Below, piece by piece: positions 2,541 to 60,369 of a stretch of DNA of 64,000 nucleotides. Under the pieces are notes generated by a model. That model was not told the DNA's origin. It made no database searches and saw nothing but the letters and a program-made list of their open reading frames with translations. Position numbers and translations under genes: made by a program. Each line of letters begins with the position of its first letter. The first letter of the stretch is position 1. The stretch comes from Sulfurihydrogenibium sp. YO3AOP1 (GTDB taxonomy: Bacteria; Aquificota; Aquificia; Aquificales; Hydrogenothermaceae): positions 1,633,501-1,697,500 of the forward strand of contig NC_010730.1 in the NCBI RefSeq assembly GCF_000020325.1, read 5' to 3'.

Positions 2541-2829
2541 AGGGTGATGCAAGAAGATTTTTAAGATTTGAAATTGTAAAAGATCATAATATTATTCTGT
2601 GTTTGTGAGAATTATTTGATTTTTACTTATTGAGAATGCTTTAAAATTTCAACTAAATCTAAAAATTAATTAACTTTTTGATTGTCATTCTGAGCGAAGC
2701 GAAGAATCTCCTTTTTCCTCAATTTTTAAAAGAGGAGATCCTTCGGACTAAAGTCCTCAGGATGACAGTCAAAGGGAAAGTTATATCTACATATACATTC
2801 TATAACTTAAAAAATTTTAGAACACCCTC
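2541..2829. repeat. Type I repeat element, best-preserved copy
   Basis: The core element is 2632-2829. It has a left terminal repeat (GAGAATGCTTTAAAATTT), A half-unit 2683-2710 with the exact GCGAAGC core, a 24-bp spacer, B half-unit 2735-2767 (inner hairpin GGACT-AA-AGTCC), a conserved flank (GTTATATCTACATATACATT) and a right terminal repeat (AAAATTTTAGAACACCCTC), which is the inverse of the left one. A separate fragment of another type I end is at 2541-2575. It fills the gap between the convergent ends of atpZ/I and the Lrp-like gene. Confidence 0.85.
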
Positions 2830-2836
2830 TTGCTTA

Positions 2837-2900
2837 TTTGTCATTCTGCAGCCGAATGAAGAATCTGCTATTTTTATTGAATTTCTCACCTGACGTATTA
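2837..2900. repeat. Type II repeat end with solo A half-unit
   Basis: A variant A half-unit (TTTGTCATTCTGCAGCCGAA, then GAAGAATCTG) is followed by the type II terminal repeat GAATTTCTCACCTGACGTAT. It abuts the type I element, so two kinds of element sit side by side. It ends about 20 bp before the stop of the minus-strand Lrp-like gene. Confidence 0.75.
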
Positions 2901-13828: not shown

Positions 13829-14047
13829 AGAAGATCCTTCGGCTTTAAAGCCTCAGGATAACAAATAAATAGCCAGCGATGTCTGAGCGGTTATAAGGCT
13901 GTTCCGAAAATCTACATCGTCATTCTGAGCGAAGCGAAGAATCTCTTATTTTTCTTTTCAAGTCAAAAAATCAAAAGAGGAGATCCTTCGGCTTACAGCC
14001 TCAGGATGACACGGAAAGGTAACCTTACAAGAATTTGTAACACTCTC
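13829..14047. repeat. Solo B half-unit followed by a complete type I element
   Basis: A B half-unit at 13829-13863 has inner stem GGCTTT/AAAGCC. A complete type I element follows at 13898-14047: left end GGCTGTTCCGAAAATCT, A half-unit 13918-13945 with exact GCGAAGC, B half-unit 13978-14011 with inner stem GGCT-TAC-AGCC, and right end ACAAGAATTTGTAACACTCTC. The GGC/GCC stems here, against GGAC/GTCC elsewhere, are compensatory changes. It fills the convergent gap between the zinc-ribbon gene and SCO. Confidence 0.85.
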
Positions 14048-21978: not shown

Positions 21979-22052
21979 GGGAGAGTGTCTCAAAAAGTTT
22001 TTAATAAAGATGCTGTCTTGCCTGTTATTCTGCAGCCGGAGAAGAATCTCTT
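21979..22052. repeat. Type I end with solo A half-unit
   Basis: GAGAGTGTCTCAAAAAGTTT is followed by a variant A half-unit at 22023-22050 (TGTTATTCTGCAGCCGGAGA then AGAATCTC). It sits between the 5' end of lysS and the 3' end of the GGDEF-EAL gene, in the gap 21924-22084. Confidence 0.7.
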
Positions 22053-26464: not shown

Positions 26465-26720
26465 TGAGGTTGTTTCAAGAAAATTTTGATAAAGATATTA
26501 TCTTACCTGTCATTCTGAGCGTAAGCGAAGAATCTCCGCCTTTTTACCTCTCACTTACTCACTTACTCACTTTCTTTAAAAGAGGAGATCCTTTGGACTA
26601 AAGTCTTCAAGATGATAGGAAAAGGTTGAATGATAAGCATCAGTTAAATGGTGGCTTTATTTGTTGTTCTGAAGCCGTGCGAAGAATATCATACTTTTAT
26701 TGAATTTCTCACCCGACATG
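26465..26720. repeat. Type I element followed by type II end
   Basis: Type I end at 26465-26490, A half-unit 26508-26537 with the GCGTAAGC core variant (GNRA-like GTAA loop), B half-unit 26583-26617, the type II centre (GTTGAATGATAAGCATCAGT), variant A half-unit 26662-26690 and type II terminal repeat 26701-26720 (TGAATTTCTCACCCGACATG). Between the halves are short CTCAC/CTTACT microrepeats (26549-26572). The rest of the 478-bp gap 26402-26879 holds no gene I can see. Confidence 0.8.
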
Positions 26721-26879
26721 TTTTTGCACATTTGAATTTTAACATAAATGTTTTGTGATGTTTAATTAGATTTTTGTAATAACATTATAGTAAGATACGT
26801 TATGAGCGAAAAGCAGAAAAAATCAGAAGAGAGGGAGAGTTAAATATATTAAGTCTTACATCTTACCTTTAACGCTTTA

Positions 26880-27708: not shown

Positions 27709-28042
27709 TGCTGCTAAAAAATTTTTAAGATTTAACATGCTATCATTATGTCACTACTCCGTCATTCTAAAGCCTGTGAAGAATCTCCTTTTGCCTTCTT
27801 AGCTATTAAAGACATTAAAAAAGGAGATCCTTCGGACTTACGTCCTCAGGATGACAAAGGACAACCCAATGGTGTCATTCTGAGCATTAGCGAAGAATCT
27901 CCGACCTTTTTGTCTTCTTCTATATTAAAAAGACGTTAAAAGAGGAGACCTTCACTTCGGTGCTGGATGACAAAGAACGATCCAATGGCGTCATTCTAAA
28001 GCCGTGCGAAGAATCTCATACTTTTATTGAATTTCTCACCCG
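27709..28042. repeat. Five-unit repeat cluster (A-B-A-B-A) with type I and type II ends
   Basis: Type I end at 27712-27745 (GAGTGCTGCTAAAAAATTTT). Half-units follow: A 27759-27787, B 27821-27857, A 27873-27902, B variant 27941-27974, A variant 27989-28018. Then comes the type II terminal repeat 28021-28042 (TTTTATTGAATTTCTCACCC). Upstream, 27660-27708 carries GAGAGTGAAATAAGAGA and CTCACCTCTCAC microrepeats. The gap 27591-28137 must also hold the promoters of the divergent sdhB-like gene and the receptor gene; no clear consensus stands out. Confidence 0.8.
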
Positions 28043-30564: not shown

Positions 30565-30727
30565 TCTTGCAATCCTTGTTTTAATTTTATTTTTAAAATT
30601 ACTACATAAAAATAAAATTTTAAATGATGTTTTTCACAAATCAAAAGACTATTGAAAATTTTAGCATTATGTATTATGTTAATTTAACAATACTACACTA
30701 AAATTATTTTACAATGGAGGATTTAAA

Positions 30728-33712
30728 ATGTTTAGTGAAAATTTATTAGAAAGAAAAGCAAAAAATTTGTTAGAACAGGCTAAAAGTATCGCATTTAAAA
30801 ACAATGACTCAATGGTTGATACAGACCATTTACTTTTGGCGTTAATATCTAAAGATGATTCACCACTTTTAAAGATTCTTGAAAAGAGAGGTATTGATAA
30901 GAAAGCTTTAAAAGAGAATATTACATCATACTTAAATGACATTTACTCTCAAATAAATAAAGCTGTAGAGGACTATTCAAATTATTTAAAGAATTTACAA
31001 TCCCAGTTAACACAAGCAAGAAATCAAGCTCTTGAAATATACAAAGAGCTTAGAAATGTAAAGGCTCAAAAAGAGAGATTAAAAAGAGATTTATCTTATG
31101 AAAGGGAATTTTTCTTTGGTGGTGGAAGTAGGTTAGAGCTTGAAAGATTGACCATATACGAAAAACAGCTTGAGTCTAATTTAAACTCATTAAAATCTCA
31201 ATTAGCTCAGCTAACGGATTCTAACACTGCTGATAAATTTTTATCCGGTGATATAAATCTTTTGTCATTCCTATATAAGATTATAGAAAACCATTCATTA
31301 ATCAAACAAATCGAAGACCTTGGATTTTCTAAGGATAGATTTGTAGAAAAAATCATTGAAAATGTCACAGGCTCAAAAACTTCAAAAGTATATTCATCAA
31401 AGCTTATTAAAGTTTTAGAAAATGCTGAAAAAATTGCATTTAACAGTGGCTCTAATACAGTTGGCATTGTTCATATAGCAACATCTTTGGTAGATAGTAA
31501 AGACACAATAGCTGGTAAAATTTTAGATGAAATATTAAATTTTGAGAAAAAAGAAGGAGGAAAGAAAGCAATGGACGAGAAAAATATTCAGCAAGAAATG
31601 GCAGAAGAGGAAAAATCTGCATTAGAGAGATTTACTGTTGATTTAACAAAATTAGCAAAAGAAGGAAAATTAGACCCGGTAATTGGAAGAGAGAGAGAAA
31701 TTCAACAAGTTATAGAAATCTTACTCAGAAGAACTAAAAACAACCCAGTATTGATTGGAGAGGCTGGAGTTGGTAAAACAGCTATTGTAGAAGGTTTAGC
31801 ACAAAAAATAGTAAACAAAGAAGTTCCGGAGGAGCTTCAAAATAAAAAGGTGTTATCTCTTGACCTTGGCGGTCTTGTTGCAGGCACAAAGTACAGAGGT
31901 GAATTTGAAGAGAGAATGAAATCTCTTATCGATGAGCTAAAAAAAGACCCTAACATCATACTATTTATAGACGAATTACACACAATCGTTGGAGCGGGTA
32001 AAGGAGAAGGCGCTTCTGATGCAGGACAACTTCTAAAACCAGCCCTTGCAAGAGGAGAAATTAGAGTTATAGGTGCAACGACACTTGACGAGTACAGAAA
32101 ATATATAGAAAAAGACCCAGCATTAGAAAGAAGATTTCAGCCTGTATATGTAGAAGAGCCGGATATTGATACAACAATAGAAATACTAAAAGCTTTAAGA
32201 CCAAAACTTGAAAAACATCACAACGTAAAAATAAGTGATAAAGCAATAGAAGCAGCAGCAAAATTAACCGGCAGATACATACCGGCAAGAAAATTCCCGG
32301 ATAAAGCGATTGATGCCCTTGACCAAGCATGTGCAAGAAAAAAACTAAAGCTTGTCTATGCATCTCCAGAAGTTATTGAACTTGAAAGAAAAATCAAAAT
32401 GTTAGACGAACAGATAATACAGGCTTCCTTAGATGGAGATTATGAGAAAGAAGCAAAACTAAAAATAGAAAAAGCAAATCTTGAAAAACAACTTAAAGAT
32501 TTAAAAACTAAATCTTCAAACGAAAGAACAAAACTTGAAGAATTACAAAGACAGCTTGAAGAAATTGAAAAGCAGATAGAGTTCTACAGCCAAAAAGGCG
32601 ATTATGAAAAAGAAGCTGAATACAAGATTAAAAAAGCTCAAATAGAAAAAGAGATAAAAGCTCTACAACAAAAACTTGCTGAGTCTGTAGTTGTTACAGA
32701 AGATGATGTTGCAGAAGTTATAGCAGAATGGACCGGAATTCCTATATCTAAGATGAAAGAAGAAGAGATGGAAAGACTGCTTCACTTAGAAGAAGAAATG
32801 CATAAACGTTTAATAGACCAAGAACATGCAGTTAAACTAGTTGCAGAAGCTATTAGAAGAGCAAGAGCAGGATTATCAGACCCAAGAAAACCACTTGCAT
32901 CATTTATGTTCTTAGGACCAACAGGTGTAGGTAAAACAGAGCTTGCAAAAACATTAGCAGAACTTTTATTTGACGATGAAGATGCGTTAATCAGATTAGA
33001 TATGTCAGAATTTAAAGAAGAGCATTCTATTGCAAAATTAATCGGTGCACCTCCAGGATACGTAGGATATGAAGAAGGTGGAAAGCTTACAGAAGCAGTA
33101 AGAAGAAGACCCTACAGTGTTATTCTACTTGACGAGATAGAAAAAGCTCATCCAAGAGTATTTGACTTATTCTTACAAGTACTTGATGATGGAAGACTTA
33201 CAGACTCTCAAGGTAGAACTGTAAACTTTAGAAACACTGTAATCATAATGACTTCTAACATCGGTAGCCAATACTTAACACTTATACCGGTAGATGCTCC
33301 GGAAGAGGTTATTGAGAAAGAGTTTGAAATCGCTAAGAAGAGAGTTCTTGAAGAAGTTAAAAACTACTTCAGACCAGAATTTTTAAACAGAATAGATGAA
33401 ATAATTGTATTTAAGCCATTATTCAAGAAAGATATCATACAAATAATAGACTTAATGGTAAATGCTCTTAATAAGAGATTGCATGATAGAAATATTAAAG
33501 TTGAGCTTACAGATAAGGCTAAAGAAGTATTGATGAAGCTTGGTTATGACCCACTTTATGGTGCAAGACCTATGAGAAGAGCTATACAAAAATACCTTGA
33601 AACACCATTATCAGAAAAAATACTTAGAAGAGAAGTTAAAGAAGGCGACACCGTTATAGTAGATGCTGATGAAACCGGTGAAAATTTAGTATTTACTGTA
33701 AAACAAAGTTAG
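30728..33712 (+). CDS. clpB: ClpB-type disaggregase with enlarged N-terminal region
   Basis: A hexameric AAA+ protein that resolubilises aggregates with DnaK. 994 residues against about 860. Two Clp_N-like repeats (about 1-70 and 222-280) are separated by roughly 150 residues, including a coiled coil (72-165). NBD1: Walker A GEAGVGKT (344-351), Walker [11 protein letters not shown]. The middle coiled coil holds an internal repeat (two copies beginning GDYEKEA). NBD2: Walker A GPTGVGKT, Walker [11 protein letters not shown], ending with SNIGSQ and the small domain. There is no ClpP-docking IGF/IGL loop, which fits ClpB rather than ClpA/C. Shine-Dalgarno GGAGG. Confidence 0.92.
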
Positions 33713-33718
33713 TTTTAC

Positions 33719-41425: not shown

Positions 41426-41629
41426 ATACGTCGGGTGAGAAATTTAATAATAGTATGAGATTCTTCGCTTACGCTCAGAATGACGAATAAGGTTATCCTT
41501 CCTCTGATGCTTATCATTCAACTTTTCGCTGTCATCCTGAGGACATAAGTCCGAAGGATCCCCTCTTTTATTGTTACTTGAAAGGAAGAGGGTTGAAAAA
41601 GGAGATTCTTCGCCGGCTGCAAAATGATG
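41426..41629. repeat. Type II repeat element plus solo A half-unit
   Basis: Terminal repeat 41426-41444 (ATACGTCGGGTGAGAAATTT), A half-unit 41457-41485 (GCGTAAGC core), the conserved centre, B half-unit 41529-41562 and a further A variant at 41601-41629. Bases 41457-41563 match 44536-44642 at 106 of 107 positions. The remaining part of 41346-41797 is AT-rich, ending in CTCACCTCTCACC microrepeats at 41774-41796; no gene is seen. Confidence 0.88.
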
Positions 41630-44504: not shown

Positions 44505-44642
44505 ATACGTCGCGTGAGAAATTTAATTAAAGTAGGAGATTCTTCGCTTACGCTCAGAATGACGAATAAGATTATCCTTCCTCTGATGCTTATCATTCAA
44601 CTTTTCGCTGTCATCCTGAGGACATAAGTCCGAAGGATCCCC
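44505..44642. repeat. Type II repeat element, near-identical to that at 41.4 kb
   Basis: Terminal repeat at 44505-44524 (ATACGTCGCGTGAGAAATTT), A half-unit 44536-44563, the centre (ATTATCCTTCCTCTGATGCT), B half-unit 44608-44641. It matches the 41457-41563 copy except for one base over 107. The rest of the gap 44359-44753 is AT-rich with no gene, apart from the atpD terminator. Confidence 0.88.
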
Positions 44643-44712
44643 TTTTCTTTAAAATATTTTAATTTACAGTTTATTTGAACACTTGATATAGATTAAATAA
44701 TTTAAGAATAAT

Positions 44713-60140: not shown

Positions 60141-60369
60141 TTTAATCTATTCATAGTCTATACTCTATACTTTGGGGTGAGAAATTAGAGATTTTTTAAA
60201 TTTAGATAAGGGGATCCTTCGGACTAAAGTCCTCAGGATGACAGTCAAAAGTTGGTAGATAAATATCAGAGAAAGGATAACCTCATTTGTCATTCTGAAG
60301 CCGGTGAAGAATCTCCTACTTTTACTGAATTTCTCACCCGACGTATTATTTAATCTATTCATAATCTAT
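60141..60369. repeat. Complete type II element bounded by a 21-bp direct repeat
   Basis: Left terminal repeat 60168-60187 (ACTTTGGGGTGAGAAATT), B half-unit 60210-60243, A variant 60288-60316, right terminal repeat 60327-60346 (GAATTTCTCACCCGACGTAT). The element is flanked by the direct repeat beginning TTTAATCTATTCATA at 60141-60161 and 60349-60369 (20 of 21 identical). The right copy contains the fliO stop codon. It splits fliO from fliP. Confidence 0.8.

Follow-up and report, generated by a model that had tools for sequence, protein, structure and literature searches.

At positions 2632–2829 of the window, by which we mean the whole stretch of 64,000 nt that was analyzed and that spans genome positions 1,633,501–1,697,500, lies a type-1 MITE of 198 bp on the forward strand, bounded by the imperfect terminal inverted repeats GAGAATGCTTTAAAATTT and GAGGGTGTTCTAAAATTT (the latter read inward). 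It is preceded by the left target-site duplication TTACTTATT (2623–2631, forward strand), which is identical at eight of nine positions to the right copy TTGCTTATT (2830–2838, forward strand). Judged from its sequence, the interval marked as a dispersed repeat in the original prediction coincides exactly with this MITE and its target duplication of 9 bp, and insertion as a MITE would explain at least part of its dispersal in the genome under study (G000; 1.84 Mb, GC content 32%). An A unit, TGTC-ATTCT-GA-GC-GAA-GC-GA-AGAAT-CTC, occupies 2683–2710 on the forward strand and is faced by a B unit, TGTC-ATCCT-GA-GGAC-TTTA-GTCC-GA-AGGAT-CTC, at 2735–2767 on the reverse strand; a C-type unit, TGTCATTCTGCAGCCGAATGAAGAATCTG, adjoins the element at 2839–2867 (forward strand). 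Positions are window positions throughout unless a locus (L and a number) is named. A second type-1 MITE of 153 bp was found at 13895–14047 (forward strand) between the flanks AGCGGTTAT and AGCAGTTAT, holding an A unit (13919–13945, forward) and a B-like unit (13980–14010, reverse), and dozens of similar matches of 130–150 bp occur in each of two congeners, G101 and G103, which are about 95% identical to G000. The window also contains a five-unit array with mostly alternating orientations (27761–28017) and a type-2 composite repeat with a GGGTGAGAAATT end that holds A' and B units (41426–41567, reverse strand; second copy at 44505–44646). A further type-2 composite with GGGTGAGAAATT ends lies at 26577–26725, and the unit tags face each other in the type-2 repeats.

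The original prediction had placed the repeat at about 16 loci, and a loose scan of the whole window agrees, grouping about 40 units into about 16 clusters. Genome-wide, the half-units number in the hundreds. A unit detector applied to a 464-kb sample of G000, including 20 stretches of 20 kb, returned 202 units compared with 45 in the reversed sequence, and the 26-mer of the A unit matched 103 places in the genome with up to three mismatches while its reversed pattern matched none. Close neighbors are predominantly inverted relative to each other (70 of 79 in the 464-kb sample), and of 105 strict units all but two are located outside open reading frames, in sequence of which 86% is coding. On two virus-like contigs (L181, 8962–9360, and L147, 4643–5041) a small phage reading frame (MKSLPVILSEAKNL...) begins within the unit and reads through it; units at other loci likewise give rise to spurious reading frames. 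Two unit types beyond the A and B forms originally described, C (with AGCCGGC inside) and D (ATCCA...), fit the common plan less well. The C-type units (2839–2867, 22024–22050, 60289–60315, and others) keep the outer stem and have the centers AGCCGGC or GCAGCCGG without a symmetric inner stem; their self-complementary GCCGGC might allow pairing between copies. A candidate insertion of a single unit near 1045–1076 gave a poor flank alignment.

As single-stranded DNA, one strand of a half-unit would fold into a compact hairpin: the (C/T)GTC tag is followed by an outer stem of five base pairs, then by a tandem G.A step whose pairs are probably sheared, and finally by an inner stem that carries a GNA or GNNA loop. 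In DNA, such tandem GA steps adopt sheared pairing. The two-layer hairpin with its GA/GA step, as first proposed from the letters alone, is well borne out: an exact reverse-complement arm follows 9–22 nt downstream at 84 of 194 sites anchored by GTCA-N4-GA, compared with 4 of 115 in the reversed control, and GA directly precedes the complementary arm in 76 of these 84 cases and never in the control. Broken stems were not found to be as common as intact ones, the arms being intact in 39 of 42 copies with ATTCT and 40 of 50 with ATCCT. Covariation, which had been suggested as a check, is evident among 72 distinct A units, a set pre-filtered for at least three of five outer pairs: 96.2% of the cells are paired (shuffled, 85.9%), double-sided changes number 68 (shuffled, 16), and the covariation score is 0.404, compared with 0.191 after shuffling and no more than 0.14 after sliding. 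Among the 94 units taken without the filter, the excess over shuffles persists for both inner pairs and for four of the five outer ones, the first outer pair being uninformative due to an invariant A on one side. When the arms of A-type units were picked without regard to complementarity, the outer pairs matched at 0.85 compared with 0.57 after shuffling. The stems were recovered by predicted folding with DNA and RNA parameters alike. As a constraint on the sequence, then, the fold is real. Compensatory changes had also been claimed for the inner stems of the B units; the paired changes are supported, but the pair GGCTTT/AAAGCC can form only GGCT/AGCC closed by a TTAA loop.

The step between the stems is retained when the inner stems are not. 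Two related genomes from another family, G123 and G125, carry dense arrays in which GA/GA is kept around wholly different inner forms (GA-GGGC-GAA-GCCC-GA, GA-GGCTAC-GTA-GTAGCC-GA, GA-GGAC-AGA-GTCC-GA, and GA-GGTGC-TAT-GCACC-GA), and a double-GA form, GA-GG-GA-GC-GCA-GC-GA-CC-GA, has the variant GA-GG-GA-AC-GAA-GT-GA-CC-GA. Among 53 distinct sequences of the inner class of 15 nt, the second GA/GA step reads G.A in 21 and A.G in 23. The arrays of these two genomes at L189–L192 (G123:C1:130000–166000 and G125:C1:236000–272000) have a cassette-like look; in polysaccharide gene regions they separate gene pairs, each of a small nucleotidyltransferase (NTP_transf_2/Polbeta-like) with HepT/NTase_sub_bind, as well as a PIN gene. 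One could regard the units as passive DNA, i.e., as a decaying MITE family whose covariation merely reflects shared descent from a few master copies, and copies within one genome are indeed related, while many MITEs and the insertion sequences described below are degraded. However, paired changes recur across phyla at one and the same position (T-A, C-G, G-C), GA/GA persists despite entirely different inner stems, and G101 and G103 differ at one shared insertion site by a paired change, GGAC/GTCC versus GGCC/GGCC, which makes passive descent very unlikely. Even so, if whole units are copied, paired changes could travel with them and no site would need to be selected by itself. The original idea of selection on a single-stranded fold stands in a broader form, as selection on, or copying of, the fold.

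That fold could in principle serve in DNA or in RNA. Of the distinct triloops, 52 of 76 are GNA, and 18 of 20 distinct tetraloops are GNNA, with 13 of these 18 departing from GNRA. According to published work (PMC4686876), DNA mini-hairpins become extraordinarily stable when a GNA or GNNA loop is closed by at least two G-C pairs, and GCGAAGC melts at 78 °C, in accordance with the exceptional stability originally ascribed to this core. Energy models do not settle the matter: the predicted fold comes out more stable with RNA parameters than with DNA parameters, the two sets yield the same structure, and sheared pairs are not well scored. If the hairpins acted in transcripts, at mRNA ends or in processing or termination, their intergenic placement and the predicted RNA fold would be readily understood, and a transcript role has been proposed earlier for REPs (PMC3733652). 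Against such a role, the units show no sense bias relative to co-directional genes (26 sense, 29 antisense), their inverted pairs always leave one unit antisense, the tetraloops are GNNA rather than GNRA, and the units have no match in Rfam; we thus consider action as RNA quite unlikely. Because most GNNA loops are not GNRA, sense bias is lacking, and units are paired in inverted orientation, a single-stranded DNA fold is favored over RNA, and the hairpins may well form as DNA in the cell.

Type-1 elements are short and non-coding (140–280 bp), with imperfect terminal inverted repeats of about 15–18 bp and, in many copies, flush target duplications of 9–12 bp (e.g., GTGAGTAAGC, AATATGTAGC, and TACATTCACT). 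Many pairs from a permissive first scan for elements were due to chance, and only elements with few mismatches and flush duplications were kept. Matches to the terminal repeat number 212 in the G000 genome compared with 39 for the reversed pattern. Evidence for movement comes from sites that are empty in G000 and filled in its congeners. At 33706–33714, G000 has a clean empty site, AAGTTAGTT, while G101 and G103 (loci L289 and L290) carry between copies of AAGTTAGTT an insertion of 175–182 bp that consists of the MITE and a flank copy; in G103 the first flank copy, AGGTTAGTT, differs from AAGTTAGTT by one change. At 30643–30651, G000 is likewise empty and G103 has a MITE of about 150 bp with two units (locus L291), the duplication there being less clear. 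By a loose MITE test, only 79 of 202 units fall within recognized type-1 elements, so that the type-1 MITE leaves much of the unit population unexplained.

A likely mover of these elements was found near 1.778 Mb in G000 (L384, 1004–1995), where a 992-bp element shares the ends of the type-1 MITE and is flanked on both sides by TAAAACCTAT; a MITE that has this duplication too lies directly beside it. The gene of the 992-bp element is frameshifted and matches PF01609 (DDE_Tnp_1; E value of 3.8e-11). From these shared ends we infer that the transposase of the PF01609 insertion sequence (IS) could mobilize the MITEs in trans. The IS copies seen are decayed (about 1 kb). Pieces related to the IS were found in G000, G101, and G103, but not in four congeners without A units or in four other genomes of the family. 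Since these three genomes are close to one another, the joint presence of the IS and the units is a single phylogenetic observation. Two other transposases were considered as partners of the MITE and rejected: no copy of the IS256 transposase (PF00872) showed MITE ends, and the ends of an rve-type transposase (L004, 1932–3053) seem to be TGTATA..., unlike those of the MITE. The IS256-family transposase has 37 matches in G000, many of them broken, and within the genus is confined to the three unit-bearing genomes. In G101, 51 matches to the rve-type transposase gene include many internally deleted pieces, which suggests a further MITE family in that genome.

The original prediction had pointed to a Y1 or other HUH enzyme that binds the units, which would make the units REPs that depend on a Y1 tyrosine transposase for their movement. 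Like REPINs (PMC3116915), the units are tagged hairpins that form inverted pairs, lie between genes, and reach hundreds of copies per genome, and among 49 carrier genomes from other phyla 38 encode some Y1_Tnp above the cut-off, the 11 without one being mostly incomplete metagenome assemblies. A unit-binding Y1 or HUH transposase in G000 is not supported. G000 encodes a single Y1_Tnp, namely the TnpA that accompanies TnpB in an ordinary IS200/IS605 element, and no Y1 match at E ≤ 1 was obtained in G101 or G103, which are rich in A units (112 and 111 copies, respectively, at up to two mismatches) and the first of which is 100% complete. Furthermore, 30 Y1 loci from other carrier genomes (96.5 kb) contained no GA-type unit, compared with a background expectation of roughly 10, and the tag is (C/T)GTC rather than GTAG. 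Mobilization by a Y1 enzyme consequently appears unlikely; an ancestral Y1 enzyme that has since been lost might still have been involved. Clustering of the reading frames beside units on 157 genome and virus contigs yielded no recurrent transposase family, only housekeeping and phage structural families.

The units extend far beyond the genus. At least 118 stretches contain the exact 26-mer GTCATYCTGAGCGAAGCGAAGRATCT, which thereby spans a dozen phyla or more; copy numbers per genome range from 3 to 504, and 39 virus-like stretches carry it as well. The record titles include Acidobacteria, Bacillota, Bacteroidota, Nitrospirota, Nitrospinota, Omnitrophota, Patescibacteria, Chloroflexota, Planctomycetota, Cyanobacteria, Campylobacterota, Alphaproteobacteria, Poribacteria, Ignavibacteria, and Gemmatimonadota. 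Within the Aquificota the distribution is patchy, with 8 carriers among 136 genomes and three of seven genomes in the genus.

Taken together, the most probable explanation, in which we have reasonable confidence, is that REP-type single-stranded DNA hairpins are carried inside MITEs moved by the PF01609 IS, after an earlier spread of the units between bacteria by an enzyme that recognizes the fold. Half-units are mostly arranged as inverted pairs, which in this genus sit within short MITEs; the IS transposase would bind the GAGRSTGTTCYAAAA ends that the MITEs share with it and move them by cut and paste. The earlier spread between bacteria would have required an enzyme that recognizes both the folded strand and its tag. 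Only tentatively, and with considerable doubt, would we go further and propose that the units belong to a family of mobile hairpins of single-stranded DNA that extends across phyla, characterized by stacked sheared G.A pairs and GNA or GNNA loops and spread by an as yet undescribed enzyme outside the Y1 class. CGTC-type REPs became known in 2013, and no enzyme is known to mobilize them. As the GA variant obeys the rules of ultrastable DNA mini-hairpins, it offers a folded DNA ligand with predictable mutants and hence a handle for finding the protein that recognizes it, and the MITE layer represents one way in which such REPs may multiply without an enzyme of their own.

Among the closest known systems are the CGTC-tagged REPs described by Di Nocera et al. 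(2013; PMC3733652), which include dRS3 of Neisseria and RPE-4 and RPE-6 of Rickettsia and are listed in five phyla, the Aquificota not among them. Both have an unpaired (C/T)GTC tag at the foot, a short loop, a short tail, and an intergenic location, occur predominantly as head-to-head pairs, and lack a flanking transposase gene. The stem starts with AT in CGTC-tagged REPs and with AT or AC in the units. However, the stem of CGTC-tagged REPs is uninterrupted over 8–9 bp, whereas that of the units comprises five outer pairs, the tandem G.A step, and two to six inner pairs; their loop has 4–5 nt, compared with mostly three or four (GNA or GNNA) in the units; and their tail is CCA-like, compared with mostly CT(C) and some CC. 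Because of the interrupted stem, the loop length, and the tail, the units are a variant of the CGTC-tagged REPs and not a listed member. Some contigs (L049, L064, and L136) carry GA-type units together with CG/CG Watson–Crick versions in the same GTCAT frame, and since both co-occur on these few contigs, descent of one version from the other is plausible. In the openly accessible literature, no paper describing the GA form was found, and the string GAGCGAAGCGAAG appeared only in two unrelated papers.

The units also resemble REPINs and GTAG REPs with RAYT (PMC3116915, PMC6006769) as inverted pairs of tagged single-strand hairpins in many copies, but differ from them in the (C/T)GTC tag and in that no RAYT was found alongside. 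With the MITEs of DDE-transposase IS, the elements described here share terminal inverted repeats, duplications of 9–12 bp, the lack of coding sequence, and a related autonomous IS; unlike in such MITEs, the core is an inverted REP pair. Finally, the d(GCGAAGC) mini-hairpins of Hirao and Yoshizawa (cited in PMC4686876) have a core and a loop rule identical to those of the units. Those mini-hairpins were studied as synthetic oligonucleotides, whereas here the same core lies inside a natural repeat, framed by the tandem G.A step and the outer stem.
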